Source of the DNA: Fluviirhizobium alvei
GTDB taxonomy: Bacteria > Pseudomonadota > Alphaproteobacteria > Rhizobiales > Rhizobiaceae
Reading direction: 5' to 3'
NCBI RefSeq assembly: GCF_030551875.1
Contig: NZ_JAUOZU010000004.1
Span: forward strand, 1 to 64,000
Length of the DNA stretch: 64,000 bases
Shown here: positions 29,440-64,000 of the stretch, in pieces
Position numbering within the stretch: the stretch's first letter is position 1
Layout: the number at the start of each line of letters is the position of its first letter
The notes under the pieces: model-generated
The model's input: the letters and a program-made list of their open reading frames with translations, nothing else
The model's database searches: none
What the model was told of the DNA's origin: nothing
Made by a program: the position numbers and the translations under genes

Positions 29440-29541
29440 GTACGCCTCCCATCGTACCAGGGGCCAATGATGGAACACCGCAAAGTACTTTAGCGTTTCC
29501 GAATGATCCGCCTGTCTTGGCTGTCCGTCAAGTGCAGGTTT

Positions 29542-29556
29542 GTTTCCCTTTTGTAC
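29542..29556 (+). promoter_or_regulatory. Weak SOS-box-like site upstream of uvrB
   Basis: GTTT-CCCTTTT-GTAC matches the alphaproteobacterial LexA consensus GTTC-N7-GTTC with two mismatches and lies 45 bases before the uvrB ATG. UvrB genes are often SOS-controlled. The match is weak and offered as a candidate only. Confidence 0.3.
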
Positions 29557-29601
29557 GCTTTTCGCCTTCCCTTTATTCGATTCTCTTGCCATATATCTGC
29601 C

Positions 29602-32600
29602 ATGGCCAGATCTCCGAAAAACCCGCCGTCCGGCTTCGAGGAAGCCCCGCAATCTCCCTTCGAGGGCGAGCCTCTGTCCGGCTCGGTCAGCGACTGGGTG
29701 CGCCAGATGGAACAGGAGGCCGAGAAGGCCCAGCGCGCCGAAAGCATGCGCGAAATCCGCTCCAAGGCCGGCACCCATCGCAAGAAGGTCGAGAATGCCG
29801 CCCGCCAGAATGAGGAGAGCCAATCTGCCGCAGGCCGCAAGCCCGGACGGGCGTCCGAGCCCGGGCGAGGCCCCCGCGGAGGCGTTGAGCGCAGCGAAAC
29901 TGCCGTGAGCGCAAAGACCTCTTCGCGCGGCGGCTCGATCGGCGGCTCGAACGATCCGAAGGAGCGCGCCGCCGCCGGTCTCAATCCGGTCGCCGGCCTC
30001 GATGTCTCGCTTGAGGAAGCGCAGGCACTCGCCCCCGGCGCCGTGACCGCGACGGTCGATGCATTGTCGAAACTGATCGAGAGCGGCAATCCGCTGTTCA
30101 AGGATGGCGAGGTCTGGGTGCCGCACCGTCCCGTCCGGCCGCCGAAATCGGAAGGCGGCATCGCCTTCCAGCTGGTGACCGATTACAAGCCGGCCGGCGA
30201 CCAGCCGACGGCAATTCGCGAGCTCGCGGGCGGGCTGAATTCCGGCGAACGCAGCCAGGTTCTGCTCGGCGTCACCGGTTCAGGCAAGACCTTTACGATG
30301 GCGCAGGTGATTGCCGAGACGCAGCGCCCGGCTGTCATCCTTGCGCCAAACAAGACGCTCGCCGCCCAGCTCTATTCCGAATTCAAGAATTTCTTCCCGC
30401 ACAATGCGGTCGAATATTTCGTCTCCTACTACGATTACTACCAGCCGGAAGCCTATGTGCCCCGCACGGACACCTATATCGAGAAGGAATCGACCATCAA
30501 CGAACAGATCGACCGGATGCGGCATGCCGCCACCCGCGCGATCCTCGAACGCGACGATTGCATCATCGTCGCCTCGGTCTCCTGCATCTACGGTATCGGC
30601 TCGGTCGAAACCTATACGGCCATGACCTTCCAGATCGAGATCGGCGACCGGCTCGACCAGCGCCAGCTGCTCGCCGATCTCGTCGCCCAGCAATACAAGC
30701 GCCGCGAGATGGATTTCCAGCGCGGTTCGTTCCGGGTTCGTGGCGATACGATCGAACTTTTTCCCGCCCACCTTGAAGATGCCGCCTGGCGCATCACCAT
30801 GTTCGGCGACGAGGTCGAGGCGATCACCGAATTCGATCCGCTCACAGGCCAGAAGACCGGCGATCTCAAGAGCGTCAAGATCTACGCCAACAGCCACTAT
30901 GTCACGCCGCGTCCGGCGCTCAATTCGGCGATCCGCTCGATCAAGGACGAGCTGAAGCTCCGCCTCGCCGAACTCGAAAAGGCCGGTCGCCTGCTCGAAG
31001 CCCAGCGGCTCGAACAGCGCACCCGCTACGATATCGAGATGCTGGAAGCCACCGGCTCCTGTCAGGGCATCGAGAACTATTCGCGCTATCTCACCGGCCG
31101 CAAGCCGGGCGAACCGCCGCCGACCCTGTTCGAATATGTGCCGGACAATGCCATCCTCTTCATCGACGAAAGCCATGTGACGATCCCGCAGATCGGCGGC
31201 ATGTATCGCGGCGACTTCCGCCGCAAGGCGACGCTGGCCGAGTACGGCTTCCGCCTGCCCTCCTGCATGGACAACCGGCCGCTGCGCTTCGAGGAATGGG
31301 ATGCGATGCGGCCCGATACGGTGGCAGTGTCGGCCACGCCGGGCGAATGGGAAATGGAGCAGGCCGGCGGCGTCTTCGCCGAACAGGTCATCCGCCCGAC
31401 CGGCCTGATCGATCCGCCGGTGGAAGTGCGTCCGGCCAAGAGCCAGGTCGATGACGTTCTGGGCGAAATCCGCGCCACCTCGCTCGCCGGCTACCGCACC
31501 CTGGTTACGGTTCTCACCAAGCGCATGGCCGAGGATCTCACCGAATATCTTCACGAACAGGGTGTGCGGGTGCGCTACATGCATTCCGACATCGATACGC
31601 TCGAACGGATCGAGATCCTGCGCGATCTCCGCCTCGGTGCCTTCGACGTGCTGGTCGGCATCAACCTGTTGCGCGAAGGTCTCGATATTCCGGAATGCGG
31701 CTTCGTCGCCATTCTCGATGCCGACAAGGAAGGGTTTCTGCGCTCGGAAACCTCGCTCATCCAGACGATCGGCCGCGCCGCCCGCAATGTCGATGGCAAG
31801 GTCATCCTCTATGCCGATCATGTTACCGGCTCGATGGAGCGCGCCATGGGCGAAACCGCCCGCCGCCGCGAAAAGCAGATGGCCTGGAATGCGGCAAACG
31901 GCATTACGCCGGAAAGCGTCAAGGCCCGCATTTCCGACATTCTCGACAGCGTCTACGAGAAGGACCATGTGCGGGCGGAAATCACCGTCAAGGGCGTCAA
32001 GAGCGGTGCCACCGATCTGGTCGGCGGCAATATGCAGGCCCATCTCAATGCGCTGGAAAAATCGATGCGCGATGCCGCCGCCGATCTCGATTTCGAGACC
32101 GCCGCCCGTCTGCGCGACGAGATCAAGCGCCTGAAGGCCGTCGAACTGGCAGTGATGGACGATCCCATCGCCAGAGACGAACAGAAGGCGCTGGAGGCAC
32201 GCGGCTCAAAGCTTGCCGACGGTGGAAAGAAGCCCGCGGCCGGCCGCAGCTCTTCCTCTCCCCTTGCGGGAGAGGATAGTTCGCCCCGAGAGGCAAAGCC
32301 GATCGGAACGGCGAACTTGGTGAAGGGTGAATCCGACACCGCCTCCCCCGTCGGGATGGCTGGAGAGGAGGGTTCTCGCGGCAGCTACTTCGCCAAACCC
32401 GACCTCGACAATATGGGCCCCGGCACCGACATGGAGCGACCGTTGTTCCGCCGCAACTCGCTTGATGAAATGACGGTCCGCCGCACCGAAAAGCCGCTCG
32501 CCTCCGGCCCGCTGCCGGAGAAGCCCCTGTCCTCTTCTCCCCAGCGGGGAGAAGGTGCCCGAAGGGCGGATGAGGGGGCGACGCCCTCGACCGGCGACGA

Positions 32601-32712
32601 CGGCTTCCGACCCGTCATCCGCGCCAAGACCGGCAAGGGCTCCTACGAAGATGCCGGCGATCTGGCGAAAGCGAAGAAGAGCAAGGGCAAGACCGGAAAA
32701 CCGGGGAAGTAA
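29602..32712 (+). CDS. uvrB: Excinuclease ABC subunit B, with repeat-derived extensions
   Basis: A 1036-residue UvrB, far longer than the usual 670-700, that verifies DNA damage in nucleotide excision repair. An N-terminal extension of about 185 residues precedes the core, which opens with [17 protein letters not shown]. Walker A (GVTGSGKT, about 223-230), the beta-hairpin [17 protein letters not shown] and the Walker B DESH (about 520) are intact. A UVR motif lies at about 813-848. The final 186 residues are low-complexity and include translated palindromic repeats (32251-32355 and about 32540-32600). The ATG at 29602 gives a sensible N terminus; the frame is open to 29503. The 3' end is duplicated twice downstream. 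Confidence 0.96.
32251..32355. repeat. Palindromic mosaic repeat inserted in frame in uvrB
   Basis: The stretch opens with the palindrome CTCTCCCCTTGCGGGAGAG found in the intergenic units at 32860, 33361 and 63841, and continues with a diverged GGTGAAGGGTGAA part. It is read through as codons of the UvrB tail (SPLAGED...). Other UvrB proteins do not need this region, so it is best seen as an element captured in the reading frame. Confidence 0.75.
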
Positions 32713-32741
32713 GAGGCACGCCTCGGGCCCTTGCGGGGGAG

Positions 32742-32859
32742 GCTTCGGAGCGACCGGAGCAGTCGGGCAAAACAATGAAATTGTTTTGAGCTCAGAAGGC
32801 CTGAGCGTGGGCCACGCGAGGGCTGTTTTGGGGAACGGTAATTTTGCGGAAAGCGCCGC
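32742..32859. repeat. 120-bp direct repeat, copy 1
   Basis: Matches 33242-33359 at an exact offset of 500 bp with about six differences. It contains a perfect 9-bp stem CAAAACAAT-GAA-ATTGTTTTG (32768-32788). It follows the uvrB stop codon. Confidence 0.85.
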
Positions 32860-33038
32860 GGCCTTACCTCTCCCCTTGCGGGAGAGGATACGGAGGCCGC
32901 ACGAGGCGTAGCCGAGGGCTTGGCCGAAGTTGGTGAGGGGTGAAGCGGTGTTCAGACTACCCCTCACCAACTGCGGCTAGGGTTCGCAAATGCTCACCCA
33001 GCCTCCGTATCCTCTCCCGCAAGGGGAGAGGTAAGGCC
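32860..33038. repeat. Palindrome-bounded 178-bp unit, forward orientation
   Basis: Both ends carry the same sequence in inverted order (GGCCTTACCTCTCCCC...GGGGAGAGGTAAGGCC), and internal arms pair as well (TTGGTGAGGGGT with ACCCCTCACCAA). The reverse complement of 33361-33538 matches this unit base for base with only a handful of differences. Confidence 0.85.
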
Positions 33039-33211
33039 GCCGCACCGAAACGCCGCTCGCCTCCGGCCCTCTGCCGGTGAACCCCCTACCTCTTCTCCCC
33101 AGCGGGGAGAAGGTGCCCGAAGGGCGGATGAGGGGGCGCCGCCCTCGACCGGCGACGACGGCTTCCGACCCATCATCCGCGTCAAGGCAAGGCATCGTCG
33201 AGGAAGTAAGC
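33037..33211 (+). pseudogene. Duplicated 3' end of uvrB, copy 2
   Basis: This segment repeats the uvrB tail from the CACCGAAA at 32484 (here at 33043) through the GAAGTAAG around the stop codon. It carries the AGCGGGGAGAAGGTGCCCG repeat. The roughly 57-bp Lys-rich part of the uvrB tail is missing and the end has diverged. It has no start codon or promoter of its own. Confidence 0.75.
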
Positions 33212-33241
33212 CGCAGCCTCACCTCTCCGCTTGCGGGAGAG

Positions 33242-33360
33242 GCTTCGGAGCGACCGGCGCAGTCGGGCAAAACAATGAAATTGTTTTGAGCGCAGAAGGC
33301 CTGAGCGTGGGCCACGCGAGGGCTGCTTTGGGGAACGGTAAGTTTACGGAAAGCGCCGCA
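33242..33360. repeat. 120-bp direct repeat, copy 2
   Basis: Second copy of 32742-32859, offset by exactly 500 bp. The CAAAACAAT-GAA-ATTGTTTTG hairpin is fully kept (33268-33288) while nearby single-stranded positions differ. Confidence 0.85.
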
Positions 33361-33538
33361 GCCTTACCTCTCCCCTTGCGGGAGAGGATACGGAGGCTGG
33401 GTGAGCATTTGCGAACCGTAGCCGCAGTTGGTGAGGGGTAGTCTCAACACCGCTTCACCCCTCACCAACTTCGGCCAAGCCCTCGGCTATGCCTCGTGCG
33501 GCCTGCGTATCCTCTCCCGCAAGGGGAGAGGTAAGGCC
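33361..33538. repeat. Palindrome-bounded 178-bp unit, inverted orientation
   Basis: Occupies the same place relative to the 120-bp repeat as 32860-33038 but in the opposite orientation. Its termini are the same GGCCTTACCTCTCC-type inverted repeats, which could have served as recombination sites for the flip. Confidence 0.85.
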
Positions 33539-33540
33539 AC

Positions 33541-33697
33541 GACACCGAAAAGCCGCCCGCTGCCGGAAAAGCCCCTATCCTCTTCTCCCCAGCGGGGAGA
33601 AGGTGCCCGAAGGGCGGATGAGGGGGCGACGCCCTCGATCAGCGACGAAGGCTTCCGACCCATCATCCGCGCCAAGACCGGAAAACCGGGGAAGTAA
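33541..33697 (+). pseudogene. Duplicated 3' end of uvrB, copy 3
   Basis: It repeats the uvrB tail from CACCGAAA (33543) to the stop codon and still ends with the same residues (RAKTGKPGK then stop). Compared with uvrB it lacks the part lying between two AAGACCGG direct repeats in the gene, as expected from a slippage deletion. The frame is open from 33428, but without uvrB domains this is not an independent gene. Confidence 0.78.
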
Positions 33698-33774
33698 GAG
33701 GCAGGCCTTACCCCTCCCCGACAAATAAAACAACCTTCACCCCGCCAAACCGATTTGCGGTCAGAAATGGAAAT

Positions 33775-33802
33775 GGCGGGCGCCCTACCCGGAACGCCCG
33801 CC
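33775..33802 (-). terminator. Terminator hairpin of the minus-strand RTX gene
   Basis: GGCGGGCG (33775-33782) and CGCCCGCC (33795-33802) form a perfect 8-bp stem 22 bases beyond the RTX stop codon. On the minus strand it is followed by ATTTCCATTTC. Confidence 0.6.
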
Positions 33803-33824
33803 CAGTTTGTTCCGTCTGAATCAA

Positions 33825-34712
33825 TCAGAGAATGAAGTCCGACGCGACGAGGTTGATCTTGCCTTCCAGCTGGATCACCATGTCCGGCGTCGTATCGAAA
33901 TCCAGATGCTTGTTGAACTGGATGAACGTATCGCCATTCTTCTGGACGTAGCGCACCTGATTGCCAAGTTCGGCATTGAACGCATCTTTTCCAATGAAAA
34001 CAATGTCATCCTGGAATCCGGTCAGATCGATCTTGTCGCCCTGCGACTGCTTGAAGTCCATGATCTGATCGATATCGGTCGTCATGAATTCCTTGGAGGA
34101 TGAAAAGGCAAACACATCCGTCCCATCGCCGCCCCAAATTTTATCCTGACCGGCACCGCCATAGAGCGTATCGTTGCCTTCATCGCCCCGCAGGATGTCA
34201 TTTCCAACTTCGTTCAGCGCACGATCGCCATAGACCGCATCATTGCCCAGGCCACCATACACCGTGTCATTGCCGTTACCGCCGCTCAGCGTATCATTTC
34301 CATTCTGGCCCAGAACGTAGTCGTTGCCGCCGAAGGCATTGATTTCGTCCTTGCCGGAGGAACCGGTAAACATGTCGGCGCCAGCGAATGCCTTTGCGAC
34401 AATTTTGCCGATTGCATCGATGCCGGTATCAAATGCAGCACTAAGAGCCTTCAGGTCAATTTTCACATCGCGCAGCTGGATATCGACACTGCCCTTGTTT
34501 TCAAACCAGTCGAGGCTCTTCAATGTCCCGTCTGTCACATGGCCGTTCTTGTAAGTGAAGCCGGTGCCTCCGGCGACATAAATGTCAATTCCGGTTGTCG
34601 CAGAAAATGTCGTCTTCGCGCTTTTGGTTAAGTCAGCATTGACGACATTCAACATTATCAGCAGGTTATCTTCGTTAAAGACACTGCCGCCATAGACTGT
34701 TACTTTAGCCAT
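33825..34712 (-). CDS. Small RTX calcium-binding protein, predicted type I secretion substrate
   Basis: 295 residues without a signal peptide. Residues 1-110 are a beta-rich head of unknown fold starting AKVTVYGGSVFNEDN. RTX nonapeptides occupy about 112-200 (for example GNDTLSGGNGND). The C-terminal 85 residues, from DQIMDFKQSQGD to the final ASDFIL, are the secretion module shared with the other three RTX proteins of this window. AAGGAGAGG stands before the ATG. It is monocistronic, with a terminator hairpin downstream. An adhesive or matrix role is inferred from the family only. Confidence 0.85.
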   Translation of the reverse strand: MAKVTVYGGSVFNEDNLLIMLNVVNADLTKSAKTTFSATTGIDIYVAGGTGFTYKNGHVTDGTLKSLDWFENKGSVDIQLRDVKIDLKALSAAFDTGIDAIGKIVAKAFAGADMFTGSSGKDEINAFGGNDYVLGQNGNDTLSGGNGNDTVYGGLGNDAVYGDRALNEVGNDILRGDEGNDTLYGGAGQDKIWGGDGTDVFAFSSSKEFMTTDIDQIMDFKQSQGDKIDLTGFQDDIVFIGKDAFNAELGNQVRYVQKNGDTFIQFNKHLDFDTTPDMVIQLEGKINLVASDFIL

Positions 34713-63840: not shown

Positions 63841-64000
63841 CTACCTCTCCCCTTGCGGGAGAGGATACGAAGGCTAGGTGAACGAAGTGAACCTTTAGCC
63901 GAAGTTGGTGAGGGGTGAAACCAACGGCGTGATACCCCTCACCAAGTAAGTCCAAGCGATCGGCTGCGCCTCTCGCGGACTTGCTATCCTCTCCCGCAAG
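63841..64000. repeat. Mosaic repeat unit cut by the window end
   Basis: Starts with CTACCTCTCCCCTTGCGGGAGAGGATACG and runs to TATCCTCTCCCGCAAG at the window edge, the same ends as the 178-bp units near 33 kb. The inner GTTGGTGAGGGGTGAAA...ACCCCTCACCAA arms are also shared, but the central sequence differs. Confidence 0.75.

Follow-up and report, generated by a model that had tools for sequence, protein, structure and literature searches.

The DNA analysed here (the window, 64,000 nucleotides) covers positions 1-64,000 of the forward strand of contig NZ_JAUOZU010000004.1 from Fluviirhizobium alvei, whose genome (GCF_030551875.1) is a draft assembly of 46 contigs. The uvrB gene ends at position 32712. 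In its product the UVR motif stops near residue 879, and a long C-terminal tail extends beyond it. The tail region is followed by an array of partial copies of itself and of palindromic repeats, and the uvrB reading frame contains two repeat elements of its own (at ~32243-32335 and ~32530-32592) that were absent from the initial annotation. The features are as follows.

29503..32712, plus strand: uvrB, the longest open reading frame (ORF; 1069 aa), with the Pfam domains UvrB_inter, UvrB, Helicase_C and UVR.
32243..32335, plus strand: in-frame palindromic unit of an ~80-bp family, 27 residues in the UvrB tail, with matches to the core units and to copies elsewhere in the genome.
32478..32712, plus strand: tail copy 1, the true uvrB 3′ end, inside the uvrB ORF.
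32530..32592, plus strand: second in-frame element, of a different family (~47 bp), 17 residues, recurring in tail copies 2 and 3.
32730..32859, plus strand: D repeat copy 1, a truncated long-form mosaic unit with the CAAAACAATGAAATTGTTTTG palindrome.
32860..33038, plus strand: core copy A, two convergent ~80-bp units whose inverted arms measure ~40-43 bp.
33037..33209, plus strand: tail copy 2, decayed, with a 1-bp deletion and an internal deletion, the uvrB TAA not being in frame.
33230..33359, plus strand: D repeat copy 2.
33360..33538, minus strand: core copy B, the same compound pair as in copy A in the opposite orientation.
33538..33697, plus strand: tail copy 3, shortened by 11 bp near its 5′ end and by a deletion between AAGACCGG repeats, its frame running from LPEKP to the stop.

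The initial annotation had described a uvrB 3′ end repeated twice downstream with an exact 500-bp period, and both tail copies were located at the positions listed. The two D repeats lie exactly 500 bp apart and differ at 6/130 positions; their length is ~130 bp rather than the 120 bp first given. The claimed inversion of the ~178-bp core was also recovered: copy A mismatches the reverse complement of copy B at 5/179 positions and copy B read directly at 48/177, and in the central 103 bp the mismatches are 3/103 inverted versus 46/101 direct. The full inverted match spans 187 nt at 96% identity, with an E value of 4.9e-83 for the inverted partner, far beyond chance, while the sequence around the inverted core is entirely in direct order. 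As had been claimed, the segment that separates two AAGACCGG repeats is missing from tail copy 3. The earlier observation is confirmed in part. Both junctions between core and tail fall at the identical place in the tail, as expected if the junction arose once and was then multiplied. The D repeat and core are absent after tail copy 3, which requires either one more deletion or a first step of the insertion type. Nothing but palindromic units lies between the tail copies, and no ORF there was judged to be a gene.

With a genome in 46 contigs and units that are repeated, such an array could have been made by mis-joined repeats during assembly. We regard this as very unlikely, since the copies are 3-5% apart and distinguishable and have private deletions, and a comparable tail duplication occurs in an independently assembled genome. 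The latter, in Pararhizobium polonicum (locus L034), is a tandem match of the uvrB tail of 462 bp at 98% identity, with the CCTCTCCCCTTGCGGGAGAGG palindrome at its start and end.

The tail copies had been said to stay in frame as far as the stop codon. This is true of copy 3 only from LPEKP onward and is wrong for copy 2, in which the 1-bp deletion is accompanied by a second frame break and the uvrB TAA is missed. A GS[YH]E motif found in all of the relatives' tails examined (83/83) is missing from both copies 2 and 3. The array copies have diverged by 3-5% and are not homogenised; this divergence alone gives no date. None of eight congeners had a self-matching tail copy in the 1.3-1.5 kb read downstream (0/8); these genomes, in which no second nearby tail copy occurs, are too distant to reveal the exact site. 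On comparison of the uvrB 3′ end among relatives, the array is private to this genome among the nine of the genus.

These results bear on the earlier proposal of a slow tail-variation system, in which the copies would exchange UvrB tails and the core flip would set the possible exchange. The frame of copy 3 from LPEKP to the stop and the direct repeats of more than 120 bp, which could recombine, are consistent with it. Against it stand the flip, which lies outside the uvrB frame, the lost frame of copy 2, the missing motif, the unhomogenised copies, the restriction of the array to one genome, and a profile search that found no recombinase families in 10 neighbouring proteins. Such a system is extremely improbable, and we rejected the switch on the grounds of frame, motif loss, divergence of the copies and absence from the congeners. 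Invertible phase-variation segments are likewise short, placed between inverted repeats and found in both orientations, but in the array the two orientations are two copies in one genome, with no recombinase family in those neighbours and no promoter-like site in 32600-33900. The array gives the impression of a decaying relic, not of a switch; the term relic, also used in the initial annotation, is retained for a duplication and not for a variation system, and the earlier interpretation as a whole is supported in part.

The repeats of the array are widespread in the genome. With the array locus counted, the whole region gave 82 matches and a single 80-bp core unit 35. The best position of the in-frame unit at 32243-32335 matches 18 other loci or stretches, 9 of them on the reverse strand, and that of the element at 32530-32592, which has further genomic copies on both strands, matches 19. 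Elsewhere the units occur as convergent pairs, divergent pairs and long forms: for example, the compound pair of the core is also found at L111 and L112, and D-type long forms at L110 and L116-L119. Their make-up is mosaic, a common CCTCTCCCC..GGGAGAGG end being joined to differing inner parts, and the core ends are inverted repeats of this mosaic (RIME-like) type, in agreement with the initial annotation. Unit-bearing DNA has also been duplicated elsewhere in the same genome (L116; a 282-bp stretch, 94%). The core itself consists of two ~80-bp palindromic units in convergent orientation, which belong to an interspersed, RIME-like family.

The RIME and AB/C motifs of rhizobia are described as intergenic repeats that contain palindromes (PMC2573895, citing Osteras 1995). 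The array units resemble RIME in being multi-copy, interspersed and mosaic with palindromic ends, but they are not confined to intergenic DNA, since two elements lie in the uvrB frame; a further difference is that a cluster is duplicated and inverted. On account of the in-frame elements we term the family RIME-like and not RIME, a likeness by description and not by the published RIME1/RIME2 sequence. An Rfam search of 32000-34000 returned four matches, every one below the gathering score and the best to miRNA families; a structured RNA was rejected and the matches were taken as palindrome artefacts. A terminator or promoter role was also rejected: alongside the lack of a promoter-like site, the only terminator-like site lies beyond the array on the minus strand, a count below the shuffle mean of 2.2.

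REP, BIME and REPIN units form inverted pairs, are clustered and interspersed, and are associated with a Y1 (RAYT) transposase. The array units likewise occur in inverted pairs, clustered and interspersed. A REP transposase as the mover was rejected, as the Y1_Tnp profile matched in 0/9 genomes of the genus (the control was positive in 5/14).

We consider it likely that the array is a rearranged, decaying RIME-like palindromic cluster at the uvrB 3′ end and not a working switch. The sequence of events, and the enzymes behind it, are inferred as follows. Mosaic units, namely a truncated long D and the convergent-pair core, would have been placed between two uvrB tails, by tandem duplication or by insertion with a long target duplication. 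Unequal recombination of the two tail copies would then have given tail-D-core-tail-D-core-tail with its 500-bp period, and one core may have inverted between its ~40-bp arms; the simplest route would be recombination or template switching within a long hairpin. Separate deletions would finally have decayed tail copies 2 and 3. The initial annotation had suggested a flip by recombination or template switching, and the structure fits: the core strand folds into a single long hairpin (as DNA, -86.2 kcal/mol, z -16.5, 0/200 shuffles equally stable), and the flipped segment runs arm to arm. Long target duplications are known from Helicobacter R-M genes, where the cited excerpt describes inserted DNA bounded by long direct target copies (PMC1643837). 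The arrangement tail-D-core-tail is likewise inserted DNA between long direct target copies, but the window differs in having three tails, separated solely by palindromic units. The same model fits loci of relatives that have a gene between uvrB and a displaced tail.

Displaced uvrB-tail copies were found downstream in 10/79 named loci, at least four of which have a gene-sized ORF in between. The count excludes a 51-nt match in L016 and L037, and weaker remnants were seen in L046 (64 bp), L078 (69 bp, 77%) and L088 (HMM E 0.0025). Of the 154 other ORFs in the same-locus control, 5 matched (Fisher p 0.009; the uvrB of L065 was counted as uvrB), compared with 3 of 253 in the own-genome control (p 5.5e-5), with loci treated as independent in both despite their kinship. 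The upstream control comprised 126 kb, compared with 294 kb downstream. One of the three own-genome control matches, in L140, resembles a real displaced gene end.

Such loci allow another origin for the array, in which incoming DNA carrying its own uvrB tail recombined at the locus, the old tail was left downstream, and the repeats came later. In L039 and L060 the displaced remnants are nearer to the tails of sister species than to the current tail of their own locus, which speaks for this origin, together with the displaced tails and intervening ORFs just described. In the window, the tail copies are closest to their own uvrB tail (94-95% over 130-151 bp); the remaining matches among the 80 tails compared, from which 5 tails including L013 had dropped out, are shorter and far lower scoring. 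With these matches, and with only palindromic units between the window copies, a displaced 3′ end is unlikely here, and we retain the rearranged palindromic cluster as the better account.

Moreover, elements were found in frame in 40/79 rhizobial UvrB tails (the window tail and 39/78 named tails), to be read as about half, because the count includes a few weak segments (e.g., L044, L099 and L104); the search set also contained stretches of the window's own genome. Among 275 other ORFs of the window genome, no such element was seen in the final 600 bp. Of these ends, 14 matched the flanks of the named loci, which visual inspection put down to gene homology except for two short matches (28 and 37 bp). 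In the open-licence literature we found no paper on uvrB with RIME in Rhizobium or on C-terminal palindromic repeats of uvrB in Rhizobiales. The cited excerpt on Rickettsia palindromic elements describes interspersed, palindromic elements translated in frame within a protein gene (PMC10969869). In-frame insertion into a protein gene is shared by the uvrB elements; the Rickettsia elements enter unrelated genes, whereas here none of this type was seen in the 275 other ORF ends and several families are crowded into the tail of one gene.

In the related species, separate insertions and displaced copies occur at the same uvrB end. Tentatively, the Rhizobiaceae uvrB end could be a plasticity hotspot with two layers, and the window array an instance of such an event that its palindromes multiplied and flipped. 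One layer would be several unrelated interspersed palindromic families translated in frame between conserved motifs, and the other a repeated duplication or displacement of the gene end as new genes are acquired behind it. The gained genes would be arsC-like, DUF3828, membrane-protein-like and AHSA1-like, with OLD/AAA_21-, AIPR- or AbiLi-like genes often farther on. The weaker result of the same-locus control relative to the own-genome control counts against this hotspot.

A domain scan covered 92 of the 141 downstream ORFs, with 90 of 92 random ORFs (from 237), all of the window genome, as the control. AAA_21, AriA (PDLC02980) and mad3 were each matched in 7/92 downstream versus 2/90 control ORFs, and AbiLi in 4/92 versus 1/90; AIPR was matched in 2/92 downstream and is not among the control families listed (best 25 of 102). 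The control ORFs include one match to a defence-type reverse transcriptase. The PycC matches (13) equal the Pfam cyclase-domain matches in number and are probably not defence. These counts are suggestive only of a defence island in the uvrB flank.

The array makes it possible to trace how small palindromic repeats can duplicate and invert DNA at the end of a gene with no REP transposase visible. If true, the wider pattern would provide an example from outside Rickettsia in which interspersed repeats are translated as part of a conserved repair protein, seemingly with a concentration in a single gene, and the displaced gene ends would offer a series for studying how new genes, perhaps often of a defence-like kind, become established beside a core gene.

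Downstream of uvrB in the window, copies of the gene's 3′ end (tail copies 2 and 3, tail copy 1 lying within uvrB) alternate with two kinds of repeat, as follows.

up to 32712, + strand: uvrB, from its ORF and Pfam domains
32730-32859: D1, ~130-bp repeat, the first part after uvrB
32860-33038: core A, ~178-bp unit pair, after D1
33037-33209: tail copy 2, after core A
33230-33359: D2, second copy of the ~130-bp repeat, after tail copy 2
33360-33538: core B, after D2
33538-33697: tail copy 3, the last part, after core B

D1 and D2 differ at 6 of 130 positions and are spaced exactly 500 bp apart, the period that the initial annotation had assigned to the second interval. That annotation also described an inverted core in directly ordered surroundings. 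The surroundings are indeed all in direct order, and the inversion is real, since core A shows 5/179 differences from the reverse complement of core B and 48/177 from core B in direct reading. Tail copy 1 differs from copy 2 at 8 of 150 positions, with one gap, and from copy 3 at 6 of 122.

Each core is formed by two convergent units of ~80 bp, whose outer ends have the CCTCTCCCCTTGCGGGAGAGG palindrome in common. D represents a long form of this family, with the far end lost; fuller long forms are found elsewhere in the genome (L110, L116, and L117). By an apparent resemblance to RIME elements, we call the family RIME-like. The window's genome (46 contigs, 5.2 Mb) contains 82 matches to the array region and 35 to a single core unit, the locus itself counted in both cases, and the compound pair recurs at L111 (81%) and L112 (78%). 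As a single strand, the core is computed to fold into one long hairpin (-86.2 kcal/mol, z -16.5). A further convergent pair of core-type units lies at the right end of the window (63842-64000) and continues to contig position 64014.

A slow system of tail variation had also been suggested, the tail copies being thought to stay in frame to the stop codon. In copy 3 this is true of the stretch between LPEKP and the stop alone; the frame of copy 2 is broken, which disfavours a uvrB-tail switch. Such a switch was judged improbable because the core flip lies outside the uvrB frame, and is further disfavoured by the absence from tail copies 2 and 3 of the GS[YH]E motif, present in 83/83 relatives' tails (5 congener and 78 named loci), and by the copies not being kept alike. 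No recombinase family was detected in 10 neighbouring proteins. The array is thus probably not a switch; it is a real and unusual rearrangement with the look of a relic, built from repeats of a known type.

Because both core-tail junctions share one tail position, a single junction was probably made once and later multiplied. Multiplication would have occurred through unequal recombination between tail copies, after which one core would have flipped between its arms. Two parallel cases support this origin. The Pararhizobium polonicum uvrB locus (L034) carries a tandem uvrB-tail match (462 bp, 98%) with both ends at the palindrome. In the window's own genome, L116 (G000:C23) carries two copies (485-764 and 1058-1339, 94%) of a 282-bp stretch that contains a long-form unit as well as an inverted unit pair, a second local duplication of such elements. 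In a comparison of 80 tails, the tail copies in the window came out nearest to the window's own tail, and therefore the duplication looks homegrown. A self-matching tail copy was found in 0/8 congeners within the 1.3-1.5 kb read downstream of uvrB, a weak 51-nt match in one (L016) being left out of the count.

The relatives' set comprised 80 named loci with a UvrB relative, nearly all Rhizobiales by title; L041, a second copy on one contig, was left out. Their UvrB tails are conserved motifs in a row with linkers between. In 40 of 79 tails (78 named loci plus the window, L055 left out), the linkers contain at least one stretch matching non-uvrB DNA in at least two other loci or fetched stretches, giving 69 segments of several families. 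One such insert in L036 has 85 matches in its own genome, and one in L101 has 8. When the last 600 bp of 276 ORFs of the window's genome were compared with the named-locus flanks, a contrast that elements private to the window's genome would escape, 15 matched: uvrB and 14 others, which by eye reflect gene homology except for two short matches (28 and 37 bp). In L013 (G002:C31), the UvrB tail extends beyond the usual GKPG end with GKAAGVVGLRRPPRNA.

A conserved uvrB-tail copy or remnant was found downstream of uvrB in 10/79 named loci (L034, L039, L046, L048, L060, L065, L078, L088, L092, and L107), always on the same strand as its uvrB. Other ORFs gave 5 matches in 154 in a same-locus control (Fisher p 0.009) and 3 in 253 in a control drawn from the window's genome (p 5.5e-5), kinship being ignored in both tests. 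Upstream, 0/77 regions contained a tail copy at E < 0.01, with less than half as much sequence as downstream. The count of 10 may be too low because several loci have little downstream sequence (L062, 99 bp; L073, 193 bp; L106, 240 bp; L094, 478 bp). Between uvrB and the remnant lie a DUF3828 gene in L039, an arsC-like ORF (our reading) in L060, a membrane-protein-like ORF in L065, and an AHSA1-like ORF plus another ORF in L078, the last two likenesses being named by eye. Displacement of the native uvrB end by an incoming one fits L039 and L060, because their remnants are nearer to sister species' tails than to their own current tail.

On the minus strand of L140 (G000:C43:100001-120000, window's genome), an ABC-F-type ATPase gene (our reading) is followed, 921 bp downstream, by a 99-bp repeat of its 3′ end (94%), which we read as another displaced gene end. 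A MAG contig (JAHHDR010000039.1; L040 and L041) carries two uvrB genes with identical tails in opposite orientation, ~6 kb apart, which reflects either true duplication or a fold-back in the assembly. Genes right of uvrB in L030-L109 are varied and include defence-like OLD/AAA_21, AIPR, AbiLi, Beta_protein, and reverse transcriptase families; judged against the control, the defence-like families are suggestive only.

The end of uvrB appears to be a hotspot across the family, both for displaced copies and for repeats carried in frame, and this hotspot claim is the part of the findings worth following.
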